Under the pieces are notes generated by a model, which worked only from the letters and a program-made list of their open reading frames with translations, was not told the DNA's origin and did no database searches. Source: an uncultured Dokdonia sp. (GTDB lineage Bacteria; Bacteroidota; Bacteroidia; Flavobacteriales; Flavobacteriaceae). Taken from it: 64,000 nucleotides of DNA. Positions 19,449 through 62,533 of this stretch are shown here, piece after piece (position 1 is the first letter of the stretch; every line of letters begins with the position of its first letter). The stretch lies in NCBI RefSeq assembly GCF_937910895.1, contig NZ_CALEMI010000160.1, positions 1-64,000 of the forward strand, read 5' to 3'. A program made the translations under genes and the position numbers.

Positions 19449-20792
19449 TTATTCTTTATCTAAATAATCTCCACTGTCTAAGATCCAAGTGGCATGTCGC
19501 CAAGGATCCCAAGAAACAGCGGCTAAGTCTACCTTATTATCTATAAGCATACGAGATTTCCTTCCGTTTATTCGGACGCGACAATTTACAAATACAGAGA
19601 TATCTTGTCCTTTGGCAGCATATTCTCTTTTAAGGCGTTGCGCAAATTGCCATATCACATCTGGTTTTGTCCGAATGTTACGCATTTGTTTCTGAGATAA
19701 ATACTCATTGAGGTTGATCGCTGTTCTTTTATTTGTTGCCTTATCTAGGATCGTAAAATGACTAGAACCAGACTTTGTGCGTAGCATCATACGCCAACTT
19801 AATCGATGCCCTTCTTCTGCCCATAATACATTGTCTTCTATCAACCAATGCCTAGAGGGAAGTAAAATTTGAAAAACAAAATAAATTCCAATGACTATAA
19901 TACCCAATGTTCGGAATTTAGGCACTCGTATTTCTTGGGTTGCTTTATAAAAAGGTTTCCATCGTTTTAAAAATATGCGATGTATGACTTCCGTTGGAAA
20001 GAAAAATACAGTAAATGCCAAAGACATGTATGGGAAAATTCCTATTTGAAAGACAATAGAATTAAAGAGATGAAAAAATATAGAAATGATAAATGCCCAT
20101 TTACGGGTCTTTTTCCAAAGTAATGCTGGAATAATCAACCCGTCAAAAATAATTCCAACATACGCAACCACCCATGGTACCCATAGTAGTTGCAAAAAAA
20201 CTCCTATGATTTGTGTATTTTTCCTACCAGACATTAATAATTGTGGCGCTGTACCATCCAACCAATCTGGATATACCTTTGCAATAGATGCATACGTATA
20301 CACAATCCATAATTGTGTGATAATAAGTAGCGGCACCCATCTAGGCATACTTTGATCTCGTATGGCTGGATTTCTTTTTGCATCCAAAGAAAAAGAGGTG
20401 TTTGCTGGGAACAACGCCATAATCCATAGCAAGAGCATTAACAGATAGTAATGATTATTGTATGCCGATTTTTGCATGAGATACACCACACTCCACATGA
20501 TGGCATATCCTATAATGGCAAGTCTATAGCGATAGCCTAGCATGACCATCGCTCCAAAGATACCCATCACTATAAAATAGACATACATCTGTGATCCCGT
20601 ACCAGGAAAGCTTTGAAAAAAGTCAAATCCAATAAAATTAAAGGTAAACTCAGGATCTACAAAAATACGTCGTACCCATCCTGTAGCAATTGCGCCCCAC
20701 GCTTCCAGCATAATCAATAGTCCAAAAAACACTCTAAAAACAACCAACGGGCTGTTATCAATACGTGAAAAAAGAAACTGATTCACTTTCAT
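19449..20792 (-). CDS. HTTM-domain membrane protein (vitamin K-dependent gamma-carboxylase-like)
   Basis: 447 aa. Multiple membrane helices (about 12-315) contain the HTTM signature features: RRIFVDPEF early, YNNHYYLLML and later FHLFNSIVFQIGIFPYMSL. A soluble C-terminal domain of about 130 residues follows. Bacterial members resemble the integral membrane half of vitamin K-dependent gamma-glutamyl carboxylase, but carboxylase activity is not established for most. It lies 5 bases after ribF in a pth-ribF-HTTM run. Confidence 0.85.
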   Translation of the reverse strand: MKVNQFLFSRIDNSPLVVFRVFFGLLIMLEAWGAIATGWVRRIFVDPEFTFNFIGFDFFQSFPGTGSQMYVYFIVMGIFGAMVMLGYRYRLAIIGYAIMWSVVYLMQKSAYNNHYYLLMLLLWIMALFPANTSFSLDAKRNPAIRDQSMPRWVPLLIITQLWIVYTYASIAKVYPDWLDGTAPQLLMSGRKNTQIIGVFLQLLWVPWVVAYVGIIFDGLIIPALLWKKTRKWAFIISIFFHLFNSIVFQIGIFPYMSLAFTVFFFPTEVIHRIFLKRWKPFYKATQEIRVPKFRTLGIIVIGIYFVFQILLPSRHWLIEDNVLWAEEGHRLSWRMMLRTKSGSSHFTILDKATNKRTAINLNEYLSQKQMRNIRTKPDVIWQFAQRLKREYAAKGQDISVFVNCRVRINGRKSRMLIDNKVDLAAVSWDPWRHATWILDSGDYLDKE

Positions 20793-24718: not shown

Positions 24719-25040
24719 TGCTTTGATTTTAAAATTTACCTTTAGGCGCTCTCGTGTAATTTTTAAATATCTCCTAATTAAAAAAGTTCTTGATAGTTTT
24801 ATAGTTTTCTTCATCAAGAGATAAAAAACAAGTAAACATAGTATTAGAAATGCTACATCTATCCCAATATGATGTGACATATAACTTCTATCATAATATT
24901 TTGGATAGTGATACACATTATAAGTACTACATGAGATCGCAAGTTGTGCTAGCAAATTATATTAGTTTACAAAACGAAATCTGGTTTACTTTTTTTACTC
25001 TTCTTTCATTTGCTACTGCAACTTTGAGATTACGGTTTAT
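24719..25040. other. Intergenic region between tRNA-Leu and the first peptide gene
   Basis: About 320 AT-rich bases. Two short frames cross it: one minus-strand with a hydrophobic stretch near LILCLLVFYLLM that runs into the tRNA, and a plus-strand 74-codon frame. Neither has family features, and I see no gene I can support. They may be remains of deleted genes at the tRNA junction. Confidence 0.4.
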
Positions 25041-25079
25041 CCGTAAATTATTTATTATCAATTATTTACACTAACTTAG
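25041..25079 (+). promoter_or_regulatory. Peptide 1 promoter with CCGTAA box
   Basis: CCGTAA at 25041-25046, a -33-like TTTA at 25051-25054 and a -7-like TAACTTAG at 25072-25079, 31 bases before the peptide ATG. The layout matches the promoters of peptides 3-6. Confidence 0.6.
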
Positions 25080-25109: not shown

Positions 25110-25256
25110 ATGTTAAAAAACATTTCAAATCTAAAAGGAGCTCAAACGCTGAACGAGTGTCATCAAAAAGCAATATTAGGAGGGAAAGCTCCTGTCTGTG
25201 AGTATCCACTTGAGCCTATGTATAATCCTGTTACGCATACATGGTCTTGCTGTTAA
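25110..25256 (+). CDS. Double-glycine leader peptide 1 (bacteriocin/RiPP-type precursor)
   Basis: 48 aa, too short for usual gene finders. The leader MLKNISNLKG... ends in AILGG (G24-G25); the predicted core is 23 residues with three Cys (C30, C47, C48), ending THTWSCC. The leader matches those of peptides 4 and 5 (MLKxISNL). Such leaders are normally cut after GG by C39 peptidase-type transporters. It has its own promoter and a terminator 7 bases past the stop. The product's activity is unknown. Confidence 0.75.
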   Translation: MLKNISNLKGAQTLNECHQKAILGGKAPVCEYPLEPMYNPVTHTWSCC

Positions 25257-25262
25257 CTATGT

Positions 25263-25287
25263 AAGCGATCTTCGGATCGCTTTTTTA
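25263..25287 (+). terminator. Terminator of peptide 1
   Basis: AAGCGATC-TTCG-GATCGCTT stem-loop (25263-25282) with a stable UUCG tetraloop, followed by TTTTATT. Confidence 0.92.
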
Positions 25288-25300
25288 TTCTTTTTTCAGA

Positions 25301-25345
25301 TTACAGTGATCTTTTCCCAGCTACGATAGTGGTAAGCTTGTTTTT
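25301..25345 (-). pseudogene. symE 3'-end remnant A
   Basis: On the minus strand this reads KLTTIVAGKRSL then stop, aligning with the last residues KLTITLVEKRSR of the intact symE-like gene at 26573. The 45-base nucleotide alignment has 13 mismatches (about 71% identity, counted by eye). The rest of the gene is gone; the next promoter begins right after it. Confidence 0.65.
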
Positions 25346-25369
25346 ACAGGTACGATTTTTTCTTACTTA

Positions 25370-25399
25370 TTTGACGATCAGATATATTCATTATATTTA
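25370..25399 (+). promoter_or_regulatory. Peptide 2 promoter
   Basis: TTTG (25370-25373), 18-base spacer, TATATTTA (25392-25399), fitting the Bacteroidota TTTG/TAnnTTTG pattern. ACGATCAGATAT after TTTG is identical in the peptide 3 promoter. Confidence 0.75.
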
Positions 25400-25429
25400 A
25401 TGTGTTATTAACTTTATAAATTTAATATT

Positions 25430-25594
25430 ATGAAAAAGAAAAATCTAAAATCTTTGTCTTTACACAAGAATACGATTTCAAAACTCAACGCTATACAAGT
25501 ATTAGGCGGCATTAATAATCTTGAAGAGGAAGGCTCTGGTGTAGAAGGATGTCAAGGAATGGCAACAAGAACTGCCTGCTCAACGGCTTGTTAA
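25430..25594 (+). CDS. Class I lanthipeptide-type precursor peptide 2
   Basis: 54 aa. The leader MKKKNLKSLSLHKNTISKLN ... VLGG (G26-G27) has the KKNLKSLSLxKxxISxL pattern of Bacteroidota class I lanthipeptide precursors. The core of 27 residues has an acidic stretch then GCQGMATRTACSTAC, with three Cys and several Thr/Ser that could form (methyl)lanthionine rings. Paralogue of peptide 3. No LanB or LanC gene is in the window. Confidence 0.78.
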   Translation: MKKKNLKSLSLHKNTISKLNAIQVLGGINNLEEEGSGVEGCQGMATRTACSTAC

Positions 25595-25823
25595 TAGAAA
25601 ATGAACTACCTCGATGCAAGCATATGAGGTATCAAATGACAAAAAGGAAAATCACAAATTCCAAAAAAAAGAAAAATACAGTGCAAGCATCGGTGAATTA
25701 AACCCTCAGAGATTAAACCATAGATCCCGCTTTCAGCGGGATTAGTTCAACTACCTATTTTGTAGGCGTCTTTCAGACTTCACAAAACAGCGTTTCACTA
25801 ATAAATAGTACATTATACTATTG
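25595..25823. other. Long 3' region of peptide 2
   Basis: Holds a perfect hairpin ATCCCGCT-TTC-AGCGGGAT (25724-25742) and a 21-codon frame starting MTKRKITN that I do not call a gene. The true terminator lies at 25824. This region is absent after peptides 1, 3 and 4. Confidence 0.45.
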
Positions 25824-25852
25824 AAAACTCCTGGTCGCTCAGGAGTTTTTTT
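25824..25852 (+). terminator. Terminator of peptide 2
   Basis: AAAACTCCTG and CAGGAGTTTT stem followed by T's. The preceding bases (ACTATTGAAAACTCCTG) are identical to those before the peptide 3 terminator, a sign of duplication. Confidence 0.9.
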
Positions 25853-25865
25853 ATGAAGTACACTG

Positions 25866-25910
25866 TTATTTTCTCTTATCAGCTAGTGTCATTGTATAAT
25901 TACTTTTTAC
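25866..25910 (-). pseudogene. symE 3'-end remnant B
   Basis: The minus strand reads NYTMTLADKRK then stop, aligned with NKLTITLVEKRSR of the intact copy. As with remnants A and C, it sits between a peptide terminator and the next peptide promoter. Confidence 0.6.
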
Positions 25911-25923
25911 ATCTGTGGGTTTA

Positions 25924-25962
25924 CCGTAATTGTTTGACGATCAGATATTTTTAGTATATTTA
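25924..25962 (+). promoter_or_regulatory. Peptide 3 promoter with CCGTAA box
   Basis: CCGTAA (25924-25929), three bases, TTTG (25933-25936), 18-base spacer, TATATTTA (25955-25962), ATG 29 bases further. Confidence 0.8.
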
Positions 25963-25991
25963 ATATAGTATTAACCTTATATATTTATATC

Positions 25992-26162
25992 ATGAAAAAG
26001 AATCATCTAAAATCTTTGTCTTTACACAAAAAAACAATTTCAAAACTTACCGCTACGCGAGTACAAGGTGGGTTTGGACCTCCTTTTGCAGAAGAAGGTA
26101 CTAATGATACAGCATGTCAGGGTAACGTTACAATAACCATTTGCCCGATAAGTGGCTGTTAA
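25992..26162 (+). CDS. Class I lanthipeptide-type precursor peptide 3
   Basis: 56 aa. The leader MKKNHLKSLSLHKKTISKLT ... VQGG (G26-G27) is nearly identical to that of peptide 2. The core FGPPFAEEGTNDTACQGNVT continues to ICPISGC, with Cys at 42, 51 and 56 and Thr/Ser partners. The strong leader and divergent core are typical of a precursor family under diversification. Own promoter and terminator. Confidence 0.78.
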   Translation: MKKNHLKSLSLHKKTISKLTATRVQGGFGPPFAEEGTNDTACQGNVTITICPISGC

Positions 26163-26188
26163 TAGACTTAGGTAGTACTATACTATTG

Positions 26189-26216
26189 AAAACTCCTGTG
26201 TATTCAGGAGTTTTTT
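26189..26216 (+). terminator. Terminator of peptide 3
   Basis: AAAACTCCTG and CAGGAGTTTT stem with TGTATT loop and T-run; same stem as the peptide 2 terminator. Confidence 0.92.
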
Positions 26217-26232
26217 GTGTAGTAAAAGATAA

Positions 26233-26268
26233 TTATTTCTTCTCTACTAGGGTCATTGTGAGTTTGTT
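26233..26268 (-). pseudogene. symE 3'-end remnant C
   Basis: The minus strand reads NKLTMTLVEKK then stop, the closest match to the intact gene's end NKLTITLVEKRSR. An in-frame stop lies directly before it, so only the tail survives. Confidence 0.75.
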
Positions 26269-26285
26269 TTATCTGTACGGATTTA

Positions 26286-26324
26286 CCGTAACTATTTGGT
26301 TATTAATTATTTTAATTAGTTTAG
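26286..26324 (+). promoter_or_regulatory. Peptide 4 promoter with CCGTAA box
   Basis: CCGTAA (26286-26291), three bases, TTTG (26295-26298), 18-base spacer, TAGTTTAG (26317-26324). Confidence 0.8.
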
Positions 26325-26353
26325 ATGTATTATTCATCTTAAAAATTATGATT

Positions 26354-26530
26354 ATGTTAAAAAACATTTCTAATCTTGGTTCATCATTAAGTACACAAGA
26401 ACAAAGGCTAATTCAAGGAGGTTCTCCTGTACTTTGCTCAGTATGTTTAGATTATTGTCGATCACAAAATTTTCAAAGCAAAGAAGAATTTAGTGCTTGC
26501 TTCAATGAGTGTAGACAAGAGCTTTGTTAA
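26354..26530 (+). CDS. Double-glycine leader peptide 4, six-cysteine core
   Basis: 58 aa. The leader MLKNISNLGSSLSTQEQRLIQGG (written here in two parts: MLKNISNLGSS, then LSTQEQRLIQGG) is followed by a 35-residue core with six Cys (28, 31, 35, 49, 53, 58) in a near-symmetric CX2CX3C ... CX3CX4C pattern that suggests disulfides or thioether links. The ATG at 26348 would add two residues; ATG 26354 aligns with the other peptides. An upstream in-frame extension covers the promoter and is rejected. Confidence 0.78.
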   Translation: MLKNISNLGSSLSTQEQRLIQGGSPVLCSVCLDYCRSQNFQSKEEFSACFNECRQELC

Positions 26531-26534
26531 ATTA

Positions 26535-26562
26535 AAAAGCGAACTTCGGTTCGCTTTTCTTT
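26535..26562 (+). terminator. Terminator between peptide 4 and symE
   Basis: AAAAGCGAAC-TTCG-GTTCGCTTTT, perfect 10-bp stem with T-run, 4 bases past the stop; it can act on both strands between the convergent genes. Confidence 0.93.
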
Positions 26563-26572
26563 TCTCTGTATC

Positions 26573-26764
26573 CTACCGTGATCTCTTCTCAACGAGCGTA
26601 ATGGTTAGCTTATTTCTTTGTTGCTTGACGTTGATTTCTTTTCCCTCTTCAAAACCCAATGCCTGTAACCATTTTCCTTCGAGTCTAATCTCAGGAACAG
26701 TGGTATGATCCCACGTTCTAGAACGGAATTTTTGATAGATTTTTAATTTTCTGAATGTTTTCAT
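26573..26764 (-). CDS. SymE-like toxin of a toxin-antitoxin type module
   Basis: 63 aa. The core VPEIRLEGKWLQALGFEEGKEINVKQQ (VPEIRLEGKW then LQALGFEEGKEINV) matches the AbrB-fold SymE family motif P-I-L-G-WL-GF-G. SymE proteins are SOS-type toxins controlled by antisense RNA in E. coli; here a divergent XRE gene is a more likely controller (inference). It is convergent with peptide 4, and its 3' end recurs as remnants before peptides 2-4. Its start codon overlaps operator 1. Confidence 0.8.
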   Translation of the reverse strand: MKTFRKLKIYQKFRSRTWDHTTVPEIRLEGKWLQALGFEEGKEINVKQQRNKLTITLVEKRSR

Positions 26765-26765
26765 T

Positions 26766-26851
26766 TGTCAACTACTTATATGACAAACATATACATTAAA
26801 AGCAATCTGTCAAACTTTTGTATGACAAAAATGTCATATAATTGATTGACA
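26766..26851. promoter_or_regulatory. Three TGTCA-N10-TGACA operators between symE and the XRE gene
   Basis: Three copies with identical spacing: 26766-26785 (extended to TTTGTCA/TGACAAA), 26808-26827 and 26832-26851 (extended ATGTCA/TGACAT). The first overlaps the symE start, the third lies just before the XRE GTG. They are probable sites for a dimeric repressor, most simply the XRE protein itself (inference). Confidence 0.8.
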
Positions 26852-26859
26852 TTTGTTTT

Positions 26860-27075
26860 GTGGATAAAGAACAACTTAAAAAGAAGCTCGGTCAACGTAT
26901 TATTGAACTACGAAGTCAAAAAAGCTGGAGTCAGTCTGATCTGGCTCGGGCTTCTAGTAAAGACAGGCAAGCCATTGAGAAGCTAGAAAATGGAAAAGTC
27001 AACCCAACCATATACTCTCTTTTAGAAATCGCAAAGGCTTTAGAAGTGCCTTTGAAGAAGTTGGTTGATTTTTAG
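26860..27075 (+). CDS. XRE-family helix-turn-helix regulator
   Basis: 71 aa starting at GTG 26860 (MDKEQLKKKLGQRIIELR). The HTH WSQSDLARASSKDRQAIEKLENGKVNPTI (WSQSDLARASS and IEKLENGKVNP) is typical HTH_3. A TTG at 26842 would add six residues inside operator 3 and is less likely. It is divergent from symE with three shared operators, so mutual regulation is expected. No antitoxin toxin-binding domain is seen beyond the HTH. Confidence 0.88.
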   Translation: MDKEQLKKKLGQRIIELRSQKSWSQSDLARASSKDRQAIEKLENGKVNPTIYSLLEIAKALEVPLKKLVDF

Positions 27076-27157
27076 ATGGTGTTTTGAAAAATTATTTCAA
27101 ATTGTATTATATAATCATTCAAGGGTATGAGGAGTTTTCTATAGAGCAATATTTGCT

Positions 27158-27826
27158 CTAGAATAAGTGTCTAATCACATATGCTATGTTTTGAATAATA
27201 ACCCATATAAAAGCTGCAAATCCTAACATATACAGTAAAAAAGAAGTATAGATCAAATAGCTGTTATGAAACTTAACTGTATTGTAGATGCCATTAAAAG
27301 CATTTTTCCTTTCTTCCAAATATTTAGTATTTTGCTTATAATCAACCACTTTCAATGGTTTTTTATTAATATACAGAATGTTTGGCTCACTGTCCATATT
27401 ATCTATATCAATAGGAGCTTTACTTTCAATATATGGTTGTTCAGTAAAGAATGCTGTAGGTTTTGGAACTCTATGTTTTAGGTAAATTTGTTTCAAATAA
27501 CCGTCTGATTCTCCTGAAGTTAAAAACTCTCCGTAATTTTTATATTTCTTTATTAATGAAGGACAACAAAGTTGGTATATCAAAGAACCAATAGCTATTA
27601 CAATAGCTCCAAAATAAAAGTAATACCAACTAAAGGGAAGTTCAATAGTTATTGGAATATTGGCTCCTCCCAATGTCAAATTAAGAGGGTTATTTACTTT
27701 TTCTAATGCTTTTACAATCACAGGAACAATTACCAAATAGTAGTAACTACTTTTGCTAAACTTTAGTTTACCTAAAGAGTTTACTAAAACCCAAGAAACG
27801 GGATTCTCTCTTCTTATTGTTTTCAT
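27158..27826 (-). CDS. Hypothetical three-helix membrane protein
   Basis: 222 aa. Hydrophobic segments at about 28-42, 68-88 and 190-215, with a soluble loop of about 100 residues between helices 2 and 3 (Lys/Tyr/Asn rich). I recognise no family. It lies alone in the accessory region, and its AT-rich codon use resembles the neighbouring unknown genes. Confidence 0.7.
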   Translation of the reverse strand: MKTIRRENPVSWVLVNSLGKLKFSKSSYYYLVIVPVIVKALEKVNNPLNLTLGGANIPITIELPFSWYYFYFGAIVIAIGSLIYQLCCPSLIKKYKNYGEFLTSGESDGYLKQIYLKHRVPKPTAFFTEQPYIESKAPIDIDNMDSEPNILYINKKPLKVVDYKQNTKYLEERKNAFNGIYNTVKFHNSYLIYTSFLLYMLGFAAFIWVIIQNIAYVIRHLF

Positions 27827-28072
27827 TTATAAAAAATATTTCTTGCACACACAATTTACTACAACTATATTAATTCCAGTAATTTATACCTTTCAGGTTT
27901 TCTAAGACCCTACTATTACTTGACTGAGAGGTATTTCCTTACATAAAAGCACTCTTACATATTGATAAAACTAATTTTCATCAGGCAGTTAACTGTATAG
28001 AACCATATAGCTTTAGATGATTATGAAATGTATATGCTAAGATGGATGGTAGATTTGGATGAGCGATAGAAT
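27827..28072. other. Intergenic region, nothing recognised
   Basis: AT-rich, without a supported ORF, hairpin or repeat that I can see; it holds the promoter of the 27826 gene and the 3' end of the 28549 gene. Confidence 0.4.
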
Positions 28073-28549
28073 TTAATTTTCAGGAAGATTATCAGACTCA
28101 ATTCTTTTTAAAACTTTAAGGAAAGCATCTATTTGTCTTGAAAAAATTATTTCTTCTTCATTTTTTATTCCAGATATTAACATTTTCATTCCTGCCATTG
28201 CAACATAAAGTCTTTTGATATTATTTTTAATTTCTATAGCATCAGATTCTGCATTCAATTTTCTAATTTCCGCATTAGCCTTTCTCTTTTGTCCATATAT
28301 TCTATCAATTTCAGCTATAGTAATTACATTATTCTTACTTGTGTCTTTGATTTTATCCTTACCAAATTCTAAAAGTGCTTCAGTGAATTTCACAGTTTCT
28401 TCTCTTATCAATTTATTATTCCTATCATCAATAACAGAATCTAAAAATTCTCTTACAGCTTCTATTAATTTTGGACGCATTTTGCGCCAAATAGACCAAT
28501 CAGCATCTCGAACTTGTACCTTAGTATATTTTTTAAAGCTTTCAGACAT
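28073..28549 (-). CDS. Hypothetical helical protein
   Basis: 158 aa, predicted nearly all alpha-helical and charged (for example ADWSIWRKMRPKLIEAVREF and a long Lys/Glu/Asn helix about 85-125). No motif recognised. It starts 2 bases after the 28552-29202 gene stops, so the two form an operon and may act together. Confidence 0.7.
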   Translation of the reverse strand: MSESFKKYTKVQVRDADWSIWRKMRPKLIEAVREFLDSVIDDRNNKLIREETVKFTEALLEFGKDKIKDTSKNNVITIAEIDRIYGQKRKANAEIRKLNAESDAIEIKNNIKRLYVAMAGMKMLISGIKNEEEIIFSRQIDAFLKVLKRIESDNLPEN

Positions 28550-28551
28550 GA

Positions 28552-29202
28552 CTATGCTAATTCAACTTCATTAATAACTTCAAAAGTTTCTACTTTATCA
28601 ATAATGAGTTCTCCCCCACCTATTGACGTGTACAATTCAGATAACCACATTATAGCATCTGATATTGTTTTATTATCAAATTCTTCATTGTCAAAAATTA
28701 AATCTAGAGGTTCATTGAAAGTATTATCCTGTTTCAATGGATAAAATTGTTTTTTTTGGGACATCCAATTTTTTAAAGAGAAAGAATATTTTTCACTTTC
28801 ACTTAAAATTTCTGATATTTCTACTCTCAATTGGTTAATAATTTTTGTGCGAAGGAATAAACTATCTTCTCCTGAATACGGATAATCTTCAGAAAACAAA
28901 TACGTTAAAATAAATAATAAAGAAGTATTTCCTTTAACAATAAAATCTTTAATAGATATTTCTAATGTCCCCTCATCAATATATTCTTGAGCGATAGAAA
29001 CCACTGAATGCAAAAAAGTTAATGAATATTCATTAAATGTATCTGTATTTCCTTTTGATATCCCTTCAATAAAACGATATTCTTCATATGGGTGAGGAAT
29101 TATTATTCTATCAACAAATTCAAAATATTCATTTAATAATGACTCACTTTCATTATTAATAAGAAATTCGTTCAGTTGCTTGATATTTTTAAAATACATC
29201 AT
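28552..29202 (-). CDS. Hypothetical acidic protein
   Basis: 216 aa, acidic and helical, with one moderately hydrophobic stretch (SLLFILTYLF near 94). A second start one codon in (MYFKNIKQL) is equally possible. No recognised family; upstream partner of the 28073 gene. Low GC and accessory location suggest acquired DNA (inference). Confidence 0.7.
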   Translation of the reverse strand: MMYFKNIKQLNEFLINNESESLLNEYFEFVDRIIIPHPYEEYRFIEGISKGNTDTFNEYSLTFLHSVVSIAQEYIDEGTLEISIKDFIVKGNTSLLFILTYLFSEDYPYSGEDSLFLRTKIINQLRVEISEILSESEKYSFSLKNWMSQKKQFYPLKQDNTFNEPLDLIFDNEEFDNKTISDAIMWLSELYTSIGGGELIIDKVETFEVINEVELA

Positions 29203-29567
29203 ATGTAAAAAATTTCTCTAATATAATTGATTTACAACAAAATACACGAAAATATCTTATTCAAACTCTAAATGCTCACACTACCTTACCCCCGCTAACA
29301 CTCGTCTGTGACAAGCACTTCTCAAAACAACAGATTTAACATCCAATAAAATTATAAAAAGAAAAATACAGATTATAGGCACTCTTATCGTACGGCTTCC
29401 CGTAATCCCATATCAATTTTCGCGGAAGCGAAATCATAAAAATTATCTTTTTAAGAATGAAAAAACTTATTTCATCTTTACAATAGTCACAATAGTATTG
29501 TTCTTCTAGGCATCTATCTTTTGGAATGATCCCCCTATATTCCTGTGTATGCAGCATTACGGTTTTA
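29203..29567. other. Intergenic region before peptide 5
   Basis: No gene supported. A degenerate palindrome (TTTTCGCGGAAGCGAAA near 29417) lies here. A 73-codon minus frame beginning MLHTQEYRG has no family features. Confidence 0.4.
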
Positions 29568-29608
29568 ACGTAACTATCTGGTTATTAATTATTTTTAGTA
29601 AATTAGTT
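29568..29608 (+). promoter_or_regulatory. Peptide 5 promoter with ACGTAA box
   Basis: ACGTAA (29568-29573), then CTGG in the -33 place (29577-29580), then TAAATTAG near -7. The stretch CTATCTGGTTATTAATTATT is almost identical to that before peptide 4. Confidence 0.65.
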
Positions 29609-29635
29609 CTATTAGTAACCTTAAAAATTATAACT

Positions 29636-29812
29636 ATGTTAAAGAGCATTTCAAATTTAGGAACCGTTTTAAATAAAACGCAGCAACGATCTATTCATGG
29701 TGGTGGGTATTACTGTTTTATCTATACGTATAGTGATTTAGTTGCATGTAGTGAACTTGGTGGAGAAATTGTTTATTGTGCGGAGCATCTTGATTGTGAG
29801 GCAGAAGATTAA
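29636..29812 (+). CDS. Double-glycine leader peptide 5
   Basis: 58 aa. The leader MLKSISNLGTVLNKTQQRSI ends HGGG; the predicted core of about 35 residues is aromatic and acidic (YYCFIYTYSDL ... DCEAED) with four Cys (27, 38, 48, 54). Same length and leader as peptide 4. Terminator follows at 29836. Upstream in-frame codons are promoter sequence, not coding. Confidence 0.75.
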   Translation: MLKSISNLGTVLNKTQQRSIHGGGYYCFIYTYSDLVACSELGGEIVYCAEHLDCEAED

Positions 29813-29835
29813 TACCCACTTAAAAACAATACGAT

Positions 29836-29865
29836 AAAGCGGACCAAGGTTCGCTTTTCTTTTGT
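29836..29865 (+). terminator. Terminator of peptide 5
   Basis: AAAGCGGACC and GGTTCGCTTT pair with one G-U, followed by TCTTTT; similar to the peptide 4 terminator. Confidence 0.8.
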
Positions 29866-29942
29866 CTCTTTGTTTTTGGTATTCCTCGAACCACACGTAT
29901 CATTCTTTCTTTTTGATTTAAAAAAGAGATGTATGCTTTATA

Positions 29943-29972
29943 CGCTCCTGCCTGCCGGCAGGCAGGTTCGCC
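29943..29972. repeat. CCTGCCTGCCGGCAGGCAGG palindrome left of the lyase gene
   Basis: Perfect 20-bp palindrome at 29947-29966, in the context CGCTCCTGCC...GGCAGGTTCGC. The same context recurs to the right of the lyase gene. Confidence 0.85.
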
Positions 29973-30062
29973 ATAAGCGGACTCAAAAAAACCACCGTCT
30001 AAAAACGAGAAATTCTATTTTATCCTTACTTTTAACTTCACACAACTCATTGACAAACAGTT

Positions 30063-31094
30063 ATGATACACGAACATACTACCGACACCTCCATAAAAAC
30101 CAACGGAAAAATTACAGAATATTCACTCAATTGGCCCAGCGACCAAACAGGCTCTACGCATGAACTAGTCATTGATGAAAACTTCATTTATGTAACAGGG
30201 CAAAACATGGATAGGATCGCCAAACTTGATTATAATGGGACAATCGTCACTTATTTTGAGATGCCAAAAGGCAGCGGTCCGCACGGATTGTTATTAGATA
30301 CAGATGGGAATCTTTGGGTGTCTTTAGAGTTCAAAGGTACCGTGGTACAACTAGATCCCGATGGATGCATTATTAAAGAAATTGATGTCTGCCTGGATAC
30401 CAAAGGTGCCAAAACGCCTATCAATGTAGCACCACACGGCATAGGCCTGGATGCTGATGGGGAACATATTTGGTTTACAGGAAAACGTACTAGCACGGTC
30501 GGAAAGTTTAACATCGCTACCGAAACCGTGGAGCATTTTGAATTACACAATCTCTCGTCTTTGCCTATTTTCCTATCCGCAGGCCCTAACGGTACGATGT
30601 GGGGAACAGAGTTATTCAGCAGTGCGATCTTAAACGTAACACCAGATGGGACGATCAAAGAATATGCTATTCCAACTGCCAACAGCAGACCTATTGCGGT
30701 CATTCCTGATCCTTCCAAAGCCTGTATGTGGTTTACCGAAGAGACAGGCGTAAAGATTGGAAAAATTGATATGGACGGTACGATTACAGAATATCCTGTG
30801 CCGGCGCTTCAAAAAAATGACATTCTTGCTTCCCTAGCCTTTGACCGCGATCACAATTTATGGGTACAGGTATATGTCGATCATAAAAATGAGCCCAAGA
30901 GCGGCCCTGATTACCTTCTTAAGTTTGACAAATCCATTAGAGAAGTGGCGGGTGCTTCGATTTCTGAAATTCCTTTTAGTATTAATGTGATGCCAAGTAC
31001 AGGAACGATGATGCATCGTATCAAAATGGATCACGATGGTAATTTGTGGTTTACAGAAATGATGACAGATCGCGTTGGGGTACATCGATTTTGA
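30063..31094 (+). CDS. Virginiamycin B lyase-like beta-propeller protein
   Basis: 343 aa without a signal peptide. Repeated blades of the GNLWFTE type (DGNLWVSLE, GEHIWFTGK, NGTMWGTEL, KACMWFTEE, DHNLWVQVY, DGNLWFTEM) form a seven-bladed propeller like Vgb, which linearises cyclic streptogramin B antibiotics. A His late in the chain (MMHRIKMDHDGNLWFTE) lies in the region of Vgb catalytic residues. Base composition is visibly richer in GC than the flanking peptide genes, and palindromic repeats bracket it, so it is probably a later insertion. Substrate unknown. Confidence 0.82.
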   Translation: MIHEHTTDTSIKTNGKITEYSLNWPSDQTGSTHELVIDENFIYVTGQNMDRIAKLDYNGTIVTYFEMPKGSGPHGLLLDTDGNLWVSLEFKGTVVQLDPDGCIIKEIDVCLDTKGAKTPINVAPHGIGLDADGEHIWFTGKRTSTVGKFNIATETVEHFELHNLSSLPIFLSAGPNGTMWGTELFSSAILNVTPDGTIKEYAIPTANSRPIAVIPDPSKACMWFTEETGVKIGKIDMDGTITEYPVPALQKNDILASLAFDRDHNLWVQVYVDHKNEPKSGPDYLLKFDKSIREVAGASISEIPFSINVMPSTGTMMHRIKMDHDGNLWFTEMMTDRVGVHRF

Positions 31095-31180
31095 CGCTCC
31101 TAGCTGCCGATAGGCAGGTTCGCGAAAGCGTAGTTACCAAAAGTCAGATTTGCGAACCTATCTGCTGGCAGACAAGAGCG
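31095..31180. repeat. Inverted pair of palindromic repeats right of the lyase gene
   Basis: Unit 1 (31095-31130, CGCTCCTAGCTGCCGATAGG then CAGGTTCGCGAAAGCG) starts directly after the lyase TGA. Unit 2 (31147-31180) is the same element inverted, with a 16-base spacer, so the pair can form a long hairpin. Unit 1 is directly repeated from 29943. Confidence 0.75.
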
Positions 31181-31223
31181 TAATCTATAAAAATTACACA
31201 GATGTAACAATAGTACGCGAAAA

Positions 31224-31262
31224 CCGTAATTAATTGATAATCAATTATTTTAACTATCTTAA
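31224..31262 (+). promoter_or_regulatory. Peptide 6 promoter with CCGTAA box
   Basis: CCGTAA (31224-31229), then ATTG in the -33 place, 18 bases, then TATCTTAA. Confidence 0.65.
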
Positions 31263-31291
31263 CTGTATTTTTAACCTCAAAACTATTAGTT

Positions 31292-31486
31292 ATGCTAAAA
31301 AAGATTTTAAAAGTAGGCACCGTCTTAAACACATCTGAACAACAAGAAATTACAGGAGGAATGAACCCTACACCTGTTCCTGAAATTTGTGGCGGTACAG
31401 GAGGAAAAAGAACAAATTATTCACAAGCGCAATGTTTTGGTTATGGCTATTCTTGGGAATATGGTGCGTGTTATATTTGTTATTAA
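31292..31486 (+). CDS. Double-glycine leader peptide 6
   Basis: 64 aa. The leader MLKKILKVGTVLNTSEQQEI ends TGG (G22-G23); the predicted core is 41 residues, rich in Gly, Tyr and Asn with Cys at 33, 48, 60 and 63 and ending ACYICY. No clear terminator follows before the peptide 7 promoter region. Confidence 0.75.
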   Translation: MLKKILKVGTVLNTSEQQEITGGMNPTPVPEICGGTGGKRTNYSQAQCFGYGYSWEYGACYICY

Positions 31487-31514
31487 ATCATAGGTACGAA
31501 TCTCATGTCTTTTC

Positions 31515-31560
31515 CATGTGCTTATACATTTGCTATTGTGTATTCAATTGTTTTTTTGCA
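31515..31560 (+). promoter_or_regulatory. Peptide 7 upstream element, type B
   Basis: GCTTATACATTTGCTATTGT is shared (one change) with the region before peptide 8. It contains TTTG of a -33 element; a -7-like TTTTTTTG lies 18 bases on. It lacks the CCGTAA box. Confidence 0.6.
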
Positions 31561-31594
31561 TTTTTAGGTATTATTAATTTTTAAACTAACCACT

Positions 31595-31810
31595 ATGTTA
31601 GAATCAATTTCAAAATTAGGGACTGTACTAAGTAAAGAAAACCAAAAATTTATTCAAGGAGGAAGCAATAGAGGGTGGTGCAATCATGCTTGCCCATCAG
31701 TAGGAGGTAGTTGCACAATAAATGGAAGATCAGGAACATGTAAAGAAGTTTATTGTGATAGTTCTCCTACTAGATTGTGTGTGGCTCCTTTAAGCGCAGA
31801 CCATAAATAG
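31595..31810 (+). CDS. Double-glycine leader peptide 7, six-cysteine core
   Basis: 71 aa. The leader MLESISKLGTVLSKENQKFI ends QGG (G22-G23). The 48-residue core has six Cys (29, 33, 40, 49, 54, 62), basic and Gly/Ser rich, and could be a disulfide-stabilised bacteriocin (inference). The tail after C62 (VAPLSADHK) lacks Cys. Confidence 0.76.
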   Translation: MLESISKLGTVLSKENQKFIQGGSNRGWCNHACPSVGGSCTINGRSGTCKEVYCDSSPTRLCVAPLSADHK

Positions 31811-31886
31811 ATATGATTATTTAGGTAAAGGTTTTTTTGAGATCTTTACCTTTTTCTTTTTCCAACTTTATAGTATTGAATTATCC

Positions 31887-31900
31887 GCTTTCGCGAAAGC
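31887..31900. repeat. Palindrome GCTTTCGCGAAAGC, intergenic copy 3
   Basis: Perfect copy (core 31888-31899) between peptides 7 and 8. It is the only perfect copy between 22.2 and 36 kb. Confidence 0.9.
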
Positions 31901-31976
31901 ATACCAAAAACTAATTCTTACATAAAATAAATACTCTTTTTAACTAAGTCCTTACACTTTTCACGTTTATCCCATA

Positions 31977-32022
31977 CGCTTATGCATTTGCTATTGTGTA
32001 TGCTTTTTAGTAGCTCTAACTT
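31977..32022 (+). promoter_or_regulatory. Peptide 8 upstream element, type B
   Basis: GCTTATGCATTTGCTATTGT then GTATGC; matches the peptide 7 element over more than 20 bases. Confidence 0.6.
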
Positions 32023-32053
32023 CAAGTATTATTTTAATCTTAAATTTTATAAT

Positions 32054-32254
32054 ATGAAAAAAAAGAGCATTAAAGGCTTAAGCCTTAACAAAGACGTAAT
32101 TTCTAGTTTTAATCGTATGCATATACAAGGAGGGGGCAGAGTTTTAGATACACGTGGTTGTAGAGACACCGCACAATCTTTTTGTGGATATGCAACCTGT
32201 GTTACTGATTGTGAGGCAGCTACTGCCTCAGTAGAAACCGTTTGTTGTAATTAA
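32054..32254 (+). CDS. Class I lanthipeptide-type precursor peptide 8
   Basis: 66 aa from ATG 32054 (an earlier in-frame ATG lies inside the promoter element and is rejected). The leader MKKKSIKGLSLNKDVISSFN ... IQGG has the same KKxxIKxLSLNKxxIS pattern as peptides 2 and 3. The core of about 40 residues has six Cys (36, 44, 49, 53, 64, 65) with many Thr/Ser/Ala, ending VETVCCN. Terminator at 32284. Confidence 0.76.
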   Translation: MKKKSIKGLSLNKDVISSFNRMHIQGGGRVLDTRGCRDTAQSFCGYATCVTDCEAATASVETVCCN

Positions 32255-32326: not shown

Positions 32327-32363
32327 AAAAAGCCCTGATCCTAGTATGGATCAGGGCTTTATT
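32327..32363. terminator. Bidirectional terminator between peptide 8 and the 33432 gene
   Basis: AAAGCCCTGATCC and GGATCAGGGCTTT form a 13-bp perfect stem around TAGTAT, with A- and T-runs on both sides. Confidence 0.93.
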
Positions 32364-62356: not shown

Positions 62357-62533
62357 CTACCAAGGAATACATTCTCCCGACATACAAGTTCCTGGGCAAT
62401 GCTTACCACCTCTATAACACGTTGAACCATTTGGGCCACTGCACGGATACGGGACATAACCACCACTTACACTTTTTTGATCTTTTGAACTAAGCTCCTT
62501 AGTTCCCTTGCATTCTAATACTTTTTTTAACAT
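62357..62533 (-). CDS. Orphan double-glycine leader peptide 9
   Basis: 58 aa from MLKKVLECKGTKELSSKDQK (ATG 62531-62533; the adjacent ATG adds one residue). The leader ends VSGG (G24-G25) and the core of 33 residues is rich in Gly, Pro and Ser with five Cys (31, 39, 46, 50, 55), ending GECIPW. C8 lies in the leader. It is of the same type as the array at 25-32 kb, 30 kb away, with no neighbouring maturation gene. Confidence 0.75.
   Translation of the reverse strand: MLKKVLECKGTKELSSKDQKSVSGGYVPYPCSGPNGSTCYRGGKHCPGTCMSGECIPW

Follow-up and report, generated by a model that had tools for sequence, protein, structure and literature searches.

Nine GG-leader peptide genes in the window

The DNA studied here is a stretch of 64,000 nucleotides from an uncultured Dokdonia sp. 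of the Flavobacteriaceae, positions 1 to 64,000 of contig NZ_CALEMI010000160.1 (C160) in a 4.81-Mb assembly of 169 contigs. We refer to this whole stretch as the window. An array of eight plus-strand genes of 48 to 71 codons encodes peptides with an N-terminal leader ending in double glycine (GG) and a mostly cysteine-rich core (Table 1). All eight had been described in an earlier note on this DNA and were found where it placed them; its count was incomplete, as a ninth such gene lies farther along on the minus strand. The GG site comes after 23, 25 or 27 residues, and each core in the array holds three to six cysteines. Pairwise core identity is 13–28%, except for peptides 2 and 3 (37%). A leader, GG and cysteine pattern matched the eight genes and one more in the window and nothing in 15 Markov-2 randomisations, a weak test because the pattern was tuned on these same genes. 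Firmer evidence that the genes are real comes from the family cut-off passed by peptides 2, 3 and 8 and from the orthologues of 2, 4, 6 and 8 with conserved cores (both below).

Two leader classes are mixed in the array, as the earlier note had proposed. Peptides 2, 3 and 8 pass the curated cut-off (22 bits) of the lanthipeptide leader family NF038153, which peptides 1 and 4–7 do not; the latter reach no NCBIfam or Pfam cut-off. The cores of peptides 2, 3 and 8 contain five, five and eight Ser/Thr residues alongside three, three and six cysteines. Bacteroidetes class I leaders are characterised by LxLxKx5L, many of them end in Gly-Gly, and their clusters often include a C39-family protease (PMC7268733). 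Peptides 2 and 3 fit this motif, and peptide 8 ends it in F. Unlike those precursors, the three have no adjoining LanB, LanC or C39 gene; such genes lie on another contig. From their sequences, peptides 2, 3 and 8 are predicted to be orphan class I lanthipeptide precursor-type genes.

Peptides 1 and 4–7 carry MLK- or MLE-type leaders and are most likely disulfide-bonded, class II-like exported peptides. They do not reach the 33-bit cut-off of TIGR04194 (grasp-with-SPASM system A peptide); only one of the five matches at E<=1, the best being peptide 6 at 14.5 bits. A PDB sequence search with one Cys-rich member as query gave no match at E<=10. The first family tried, TIGR04149, had no match in the genome and none in 14 controls either, and is hence uninformative.

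The array as part of a dispersed set

A profile built from the five MLK-type array peptides finds 42 places in this genome at E<=0.01, 49 at E<=1 and 57 at E<=10. NF038153 finds 12 at E<=0.01 and 19 at E<=1. The two lists overlap nowhere at E<=0.01, giving a total of 54 places on 31 contigs; some of these matches carry a variant of GG. From the fetched stretches we read 56 intact small open reading frames (ORFs) with such leaders, each with three to eight cysteines. By these leader matches, the array is a local outcrop of a predicted genome-wide set of more than 50 dispersed genes. The earlier note was right to see a repertoire with conserved leaders and diversified cores, though it had only a small part of it in view.

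MLK-type matches (E<=1) occur in 8 of 18 genus genomes (49, 44, 39, 36, 6, 3, 2 and 1 matches), and a leader-only profile (E<=0.1) matches 34 of 199 sampled Flavobacteriaceae genomes. Prochlorosin-type repertoires also comprise many precursors far from the enzyme gene (PMC7268733). In this respect the present set resembles them. The prochlorosin leader family and enzymes presumably differ from those here.

Candidate processing and export machinery

The earlier note reported no C39 peptidase, ATP-binding cassette (ABC) exporter, LanB or LanC. This is true of the window; the genome, however, has four C39 matches, on contigs C31, C85, C86 and, weakly, C91, and it has LanB and LanC. No C39 match lies anywhere on C160. 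The note's expectation that processing would come from elsewhere is borne out by candidate loci on C31, C85 and C86/C95. Contig C31 encodes LanC (PF05147, 1e-55), both LanB parts (N, PF04738, 1e-146; C, PF14028, 5e-74), a C39-ABC protein (PF03412, 2e-34) and HlyD (PF13437, 1.5e-12), with four lanthipeptide-type precursors directly upstream and a VKOR/thioredoxin gene also present. Contig C85 carries the grasp-with-SPASM enzymes TIGR04192 (2e-78) and TIGR04193 (1e-100), a C39-ABC gene and HlyD. The end of C86 encodes a C39-like domain, and at the start of C95 the tail of a VKOR/thioredoxin-type protein precedes peptide genes. With C39, LanB/LanC and grasp-with-SPASM loci elsewhere in the genome, an array without machinery is no puzzle in itself, and we ruled that framing out.

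In relatives, such genes stand beside the peptides. The 7.8-kb contig L063 of genome G001 has the order VKOR/thioredoxin, C39-ABC, peptide, HlyD, peptide, the peptides being of the MLK class. The VKOR/thioredoxin protein adjoins MLK-class peptides in G007, G011 and G024 too, and in G025 a C39-matching protein of similar size lies near peptides and a C39-ABC gene. C39 is present in all eight genus genomes with an MLK-type match and in two of the ten without (kinship uncorrected).

Seven copies of the C39-like/VKOR/thioredoxin protein were aligned. Six cysteines in the VKOR and thioredoxin parts are invariant in all seven (194, 202, 274, 277, 391 and 394 in the numbering of the first sequence). 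Within the first 70 columns of the alignment no copy has a cysteine. In L061, L059 and L315 the C39-like part is recognised by Pfam. An active C39 domain has its nucleophile near the domain start. The C31 transporter, used as the active-type comparison, has a cysteine at position 15, which we take to be this nucleophile. Lacking the catalytic cysteine, the N-terminal C39-like domain could only hold the leader. Our search of open-licence PMC literature found no report of such a protein. In this genome the C39-like/VKOR gene on C86 (L056 11236-12230; C95 part, L131 1-1052) runs in frame into an alpha/beta-hydrolase stretch; the fusion may be a chimera formed during assembly at a GHSLG stretch common to both.

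The explanation we favour, which we consider moderately probable as a whole, is that the genes form a repertoire of exported peptides processed by machinery at other loci and probably bacteriocin-like. The conserved leader ending in GG would act as an address label. Most likely, C39-type peptidase/ABC exporters from other loci would bind it, cleave behind the GG and, together with an HlyD partner, export the core. Before that, the LanB and LanC encoded on C31 would dehydrate peptides 2, 3 and 8 and close them into lanthionine rings. For the MLK-type peptides (1, 4–7 and the ninth), the membrane VKOR/thioredoxin protein would oxidise the cysteines to disulfides. The products would most likely be bacteriocin-like peptides used in competition.

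Bacteroidetocin loci offer a close parallel. They combine a GG leader, a Cys-containing core, a thiol oxidoreductase and a C39-ABC transporter (PMC6671954). Relatives of the array show the same logic, as where oxidoreductase and C39-ABC stand beside the same leader class in G001, while in the window neither adjoins a peptide gene. Bacteroidetocin leaders have 15–16 residues (PMC6671954); those of peptides 1 and 4–7 have 23–25. Bacteroidetocins are described there as lying each in its own small region, whereas the genes here are single or in arrays and scattered. The oxidoreductase here carries a C39-like domain, unlike theirs.

A competing assignment makes the MLK-type peptides substrates of the C85 grasp-with-SPASM enzymes, which would introduce side-chain crosslinks, with export by the C85 C39-ABC protein. 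That locus is complete, the genome has just two full C39-ABC genes, of which the locus's exporter is one, and peptide 6 gives the sub-threshold TIGR04194 match described above. Only one of five MLK peptides matches this precursor family, however, and far under the cut-off. In G001, moreover, MLK-class peptides accompany VKOR/thioredoxin, C39-ABC and HlyD genes, and no such enzyme appears among the other large ORFs of the contig (judged partly by eye). We regard this assignment as unlikely.

Conservation of cores between genomes

Peptides 2, 4, 6 and 8 have orthologues with conserved cores in other genomes of the genus, and peptides 6 and 8 also have relatives on an uncultured Dokdonia contig (L172). 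The ratio of nonsynonymous to synonymous differences per site (pN/pS), taken between genomes for pairs of peptides 2, 3, 4, 6 and 8, is 0.23–0.53 in cores and 0.20–1.35 in leaders, with few sites each. The cores of peptides 2, 4, 6 and 8 are under purifying selection. Peptide 6 shares 34 of 40 aligned core residues with its G011 orthologue and 9 of 23 leader residues. It is not typical, as identity is higher in the core than in the leader for just 16 of 101 between-genome pairs.

These data bear on the idea, raised in the earlier note as decay in relatives, that the array is a relic or selfish set of decaying, functionless precursor genes. Its machinery is not local, decayed family members exist, and 10 of the 18 genus genomes have no MLK-type match at E<=1. 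The eight ORFs of the array are all intact, though, the peptide 6 core and the low core pN/pS point to constraint, and upstream palindromes (below) are retained at orthologues of peptides 4 and 6. For peptides 2, 4, 6 and 8, intact orthologues under purifying selection rule relics out. For peptides 1, 5 and 7 no orthologue was seen among the loci fetched, and decayed members occur elsewhere in the family. For the array as a whole we consider decay very improbable, and an exported repertoire remains the reading we prefer.

A shared promoter layout

The earlier note gave several genes their own promoter and terminator and suggested that each may be switched separately. Terminators are predicted after peptides 1, 4, 5, 7 and 8. 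In this region, terminator-like sites number 10 against 3.4 +- 1.6 in shuffles, and two of the ten are promoter palindromes. Separate switching may hold for transcription units, but peptides 1, 4, 5 and 6 share a promoter layout. Since scattered members of the set have it too, these four look co-regulated. Peptides 7 and 8 have different upstream sequence.

The layout contains an operator-like palindrome, TTACGG-N5-CCGTAA. Exact copies number six in 4.8 Mb against about 0.2 expected, an estimate from base composition. Four of the six sit 74–81 nt ahead of MLK-type peptides, including peptide 1; the remaining two (C87, C91:17160) have no such peptide downstream. With up to two mismatches, the palindrome precedes 16 of 131 genus peptides, against 0.15 in randomised upstreams and one in downstream stretches. 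Peptide 3 has a version with three mismatches upstream. One of the 16 sites, L102, resembles a DUF805b site (see below) and was excluded from the count of -33 and -7 boxes. In 14 of the remaining 15, TTG or CTG starts 4 nt downstream of the palindrome, peptide 1 being the exception. A TAnnTTwR box starts 23–26 nt past it in 15 of 15 (2.4 expected from shuffles over the range 22–34), box and distance range having been picked after the sites had been seen. The flavobacterial -7 box is TAnnTTTG (PMC9723704). Sigma-70 promoter matches show no excess in the region (34, with 36.4 in shuffles), and Bacteroidota-type boxes were used in their place. Set directly against the -33 box, the palindrome would occupy the position of an activator site. 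We found no report of this palindrome in the searched open-licence PMC literature.

A LytTR response regulator gene on C91 (L183 659-1402, minus strand) has a one-mismatch palindrome upstream. As the palindrome's regulator its product is only a lead; 13 one-mismatch palindromes were found in all, and a control pattern gave 8 sites at <=1 mismatch. At L177 1501-1517 a copy of the palindrome separates an MLK-type peptide gene from a divergent lipoprotein-like gene (193 aa).

Common promoters and conserved cores in orthologues would also suit a receptor-matched signal, so that the peptides might be pheromones or contact cues, not antimicrobials. GG leaders and C39 export also serve signalling peptides, which counts for this alternative. 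Dozens of unrelated Cys-rich cores per genome, on the other hand, would require many receptors, and no receptor candidate was recognised beside the array. A signalling role seems unlikely, and we keep to peptides of a bacteriocin-like kind.

Table 1. Peptide genes and associated features in the window
Feature	Coordinates	Strand	Description	Further data
Peptide 1	25110..25256	+	MLK-type leader 25 aa, core 23 aa, 3 Cys	
Peptide 2	25430..25594	+	Class I lanthipeptide-type leader 27 aa, core 27 aa, 3 Cys	NF038153 8.6e-6, 25.8 bits
Peptide 3	25992..26162	+	Class I lanthipeptide-type leader 27 aa, core 29 aa, 3 Cys	NF038153 23.7 bits
Peptide 4	26354..26530	+	MLK-type leader 23 aa, core 35 aa, 6 Cys	Orthologue in G007
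Peptide 5	29636..29812	+	MLK-type leader 23 aa, core 35 aa, 4 Cys	
Peptide 6	31292..31486	+	MLK-type leader 23 aa, core 41 aa, 4 Cys	Core kept in G011 and a Dokdonia metagenome-assembled genome (MAG)
Peptide 7	31595..31810	+	MLE-type leader 23 aa, core 48 aa, 6 Cys	
Peptide 8	32054..32254	+	Class I lanthipeptide-type leader 27 aa, core 39 aa, 6 Cys	NF038153 23.1 bits; core kept in G011 and Dokdonia MAG
Ninth peptide	62357..62533	-	MLK-type leader 25 aa ending GG, Cys-rich core	Absent from the earlier list
Palindrome before peptide 1	25030..25046		TTACGG-N5-CCGTAA, operator-like	Exact
Palindrome before peptide 4	26275..26291		Same	1 mismatch; exact in G007 orthologue
Palindrome before peptide 5	29557..29573		Same	1 mismatch
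Palindrome before peptide 6	31213..31229		Same	2 mismatches; 1 in G011 orthologue
-7 box candidate, peptide 1	25072..25079	+	TAnnTTwR	25 nt past palindrome
-7 box candidate, peptide 4	26317..26324	+		
-7 box candidate, peptide 5	29599..29606	+		
-7 box candidate, peptide 6	31255..31262	+		
Predicted terminator, peptide 1	25263..25282	+		
Predicted terminator, peptide 4	26535..26558	+		
Predicted terminator, peptide 5	29836..29857	+		
Predicted terminator, peptide 7	31823..31851	+		
Predicted terminator, peptide 8	32329..32360	+		

A covarying pseudoknot ahead of sister genes

Many sister genes carry a stretch of the type AGACAC..CCTTGA.GTGTCT..TAAATG.TCAAGG about 60 nt ahead of the ATG, in which two interleaved helices are possible. 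For a 48-site genus alignment (A3), sites were chosen by the helix 1 pattern from 53 candidates. Five were removed by eye (window:26321, L067:2214, L080:2114, L061:2651 and L033:1437); four seemed to be chance matches to the pattern or to fit badly, and in L080:2114 the pairing of helix 2 is poor. This selection biases A3, not alignment A5, towards structure. In A3, 88.9% of cells pair, and there are 68 two-sided changes against 25.6 +- 5.4 in shuffles and 11–19 in slid controls. Of the two outer pairs of helix 2, one is unpaired in 27 and the other in 20 of the 48 sites. Results of a general pseudoknot script scoring less than about 29 overlapped those from its own shuffles; we therefore relied only on covariation counts for the aligned motif.

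At E<=1 a model of the element matches this genome in 25 places, 18 of which belong to the training set. Directly downstream lies an intact peptide gene in 23 cases, a decayed gene in one and another site in one; among the seven places outside training the figure is five. In two of these peptides GA or AG replaces GG. There is no match on C160, and the array is therefore without the element. At E<=0.01 the pseudoknot occurs in 24 of the 199 family genomes, 22 of which also have the leader. Among 296 genomes of the class (E<=0.001, stricter filters) it occurs in five, all within the family.

The association extends beyond the genus. In 23 other genera, none used in training, 79 sites were found, and a loose pattern recognises a GG-type peptide behind 72 of them. 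On inspection by eye, 73 precede such a peptide, three a decayed remnant and three something else; one of the 73 peptides is truncated to 33 aa, and several have G-x-G, GA, GS or AG. GG-type peptides follow the element in 22 of the 23 genera, and at least three further leader types, lanthipeptide-type included, were seen by eye behind it. Across these sites (76 distinct), aligned by the model with helix 2 and not helix 1, 91.4% of cells pair, and there are 132 two-sided changes against 51.3 +- 5.5 in shuffles and 14–29 in slid controls; the outermost helix 2 pair is unpaired in 62 of the 76. Just upstream, a hairpin scores >=5 at 75 of 127 sites against 18 in shuffles, and >=8 at 1 against 1.5. 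The element presumably works as RNA. Decayed GG-type genes still preceded by the pseudoknot occur at L243, L301:337, L290:353 and L211, a picture of birth and death of family members.

A scan of six pseudoknot-bearing loci with 4227 Rfam models gave no match at E<=1. For these six loci, this excludes DUF805b (RF02914) or another Rfam family as the pseudoknot's identity. Our search of the open-licence PMC literature found no report of the pseudoknot either. The separate DUF805b RNA also lies ahead of GG-type peptides in this genome, at 7 of 16 sites examined, and by eye also before lipoprotein-like genes and a protease-like gene, whereas the pseudoknot lies almost only before GG-type peptides. 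Fifteen DUF805b sites exceed the cut-off in the genome; those at L053 215-250, 4444-4479, 4825-4860 and 5254-5288 precede GG-type peptides. These sites appear to mark a wider regulon.

Other genes in the window

A virginiamycin-B-lyase-like propeller gene (30063-31094, plus strand; PF24684, 4.6e-44) lies inside the array. Its product is 79% identical to that of an uncultured Dokdonia gene, and the next full-length matches, at 70–72%, are from Nitrosomonas and a Methylococcales MAG, a pattern that suggests horizontal transfer. A toxin-antitoxin-like pair is also within the array: a SymE-like toxin gene (26573-26764, minus strand; PF08845, 3e-11) and a divergent Cro/C1-type helix-turn-helix gene (26842-27075, plus strand). 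Two genes at 28073-29202 (minus strand) have no Pfam family over cut-off, and the 158-aa product of one weakly matches LmuB in PADLOC (1e-4). At 19449-20792 (minus strand), HTTM (1.2e-71) and vitamin K-dependent gamma-carboxylase lumenal (2.2e-50) domains occur in one protein.

Discussion

Several observations weigh against an exported repertoire served from other loci. The window's 25 ORFs of >=300 aa contain no match to LanB, LanC, C39, ABC exporter or HlyD (thresholds 1e-5 to 10), and the window has no VKOR gene. Both full C39-ABC genes of this genome lie in loci with other modifying enzymes. The C39-like/VKOR gene of this genome is broken across contigs C86 and C95, and C86 ends in a foreign stretch. 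Pfam reports no C39-like domain for the L063 and L053 copies, where it was assigned by alignment. Two genus genomes have C39 and no such peptides. One member of this genome (C168:1070) has an internal stop, some family members are decayed, and peptides 1, 5 and 7 lack orthologues among the loci fetched. Over 101 between-genome pairs, which are non-independent, pN/pS is 0.41 for cores and 0.285 for leaders; the cores are constrained, though less than the leaders.

GG-leader peptides are an ordinary type of molecule in an unusual organisation, and the most novel part is the uncatalogued RNA-like element. Taken jointly, the observations make it fairly likely that some Flavobacteriaceae carry large, dispersed repertoires of disulfide-rich exported peptides. 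A varying part of these would be marked by a new class of regulatory RNA: an H-type pseudoknot, in many cases preceded by a hairpin, that lies a set distance upstream of the start codon and is shared by several unrelated leader classes. The same reading includes leader-guided oxidation by the C39-like/VKOR/thioredoxin fusion. If it is true, this oxidation would be a second new element, and the protein suggests how the peptides might be oxidised before export.

Most of the more than 50 candidate exported Cys-rich peptides of this one genome are encoded away from recognised enzyme genes, and gene-cluster mining could miss them. The activator-like palindrome and the covarying pseudoknot offer a leader-independent way to find and group such peptides. 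The pseudoknot stands ahead of GG-type peptides in 22 other sampled genera of the family, including leader classes absent from the query genome, and the question of its ligand or partner is directly testable. If the joint reading holds, the pseudoknot would be a common switch or stability element, and a handle for peptides that leader searches have missed.

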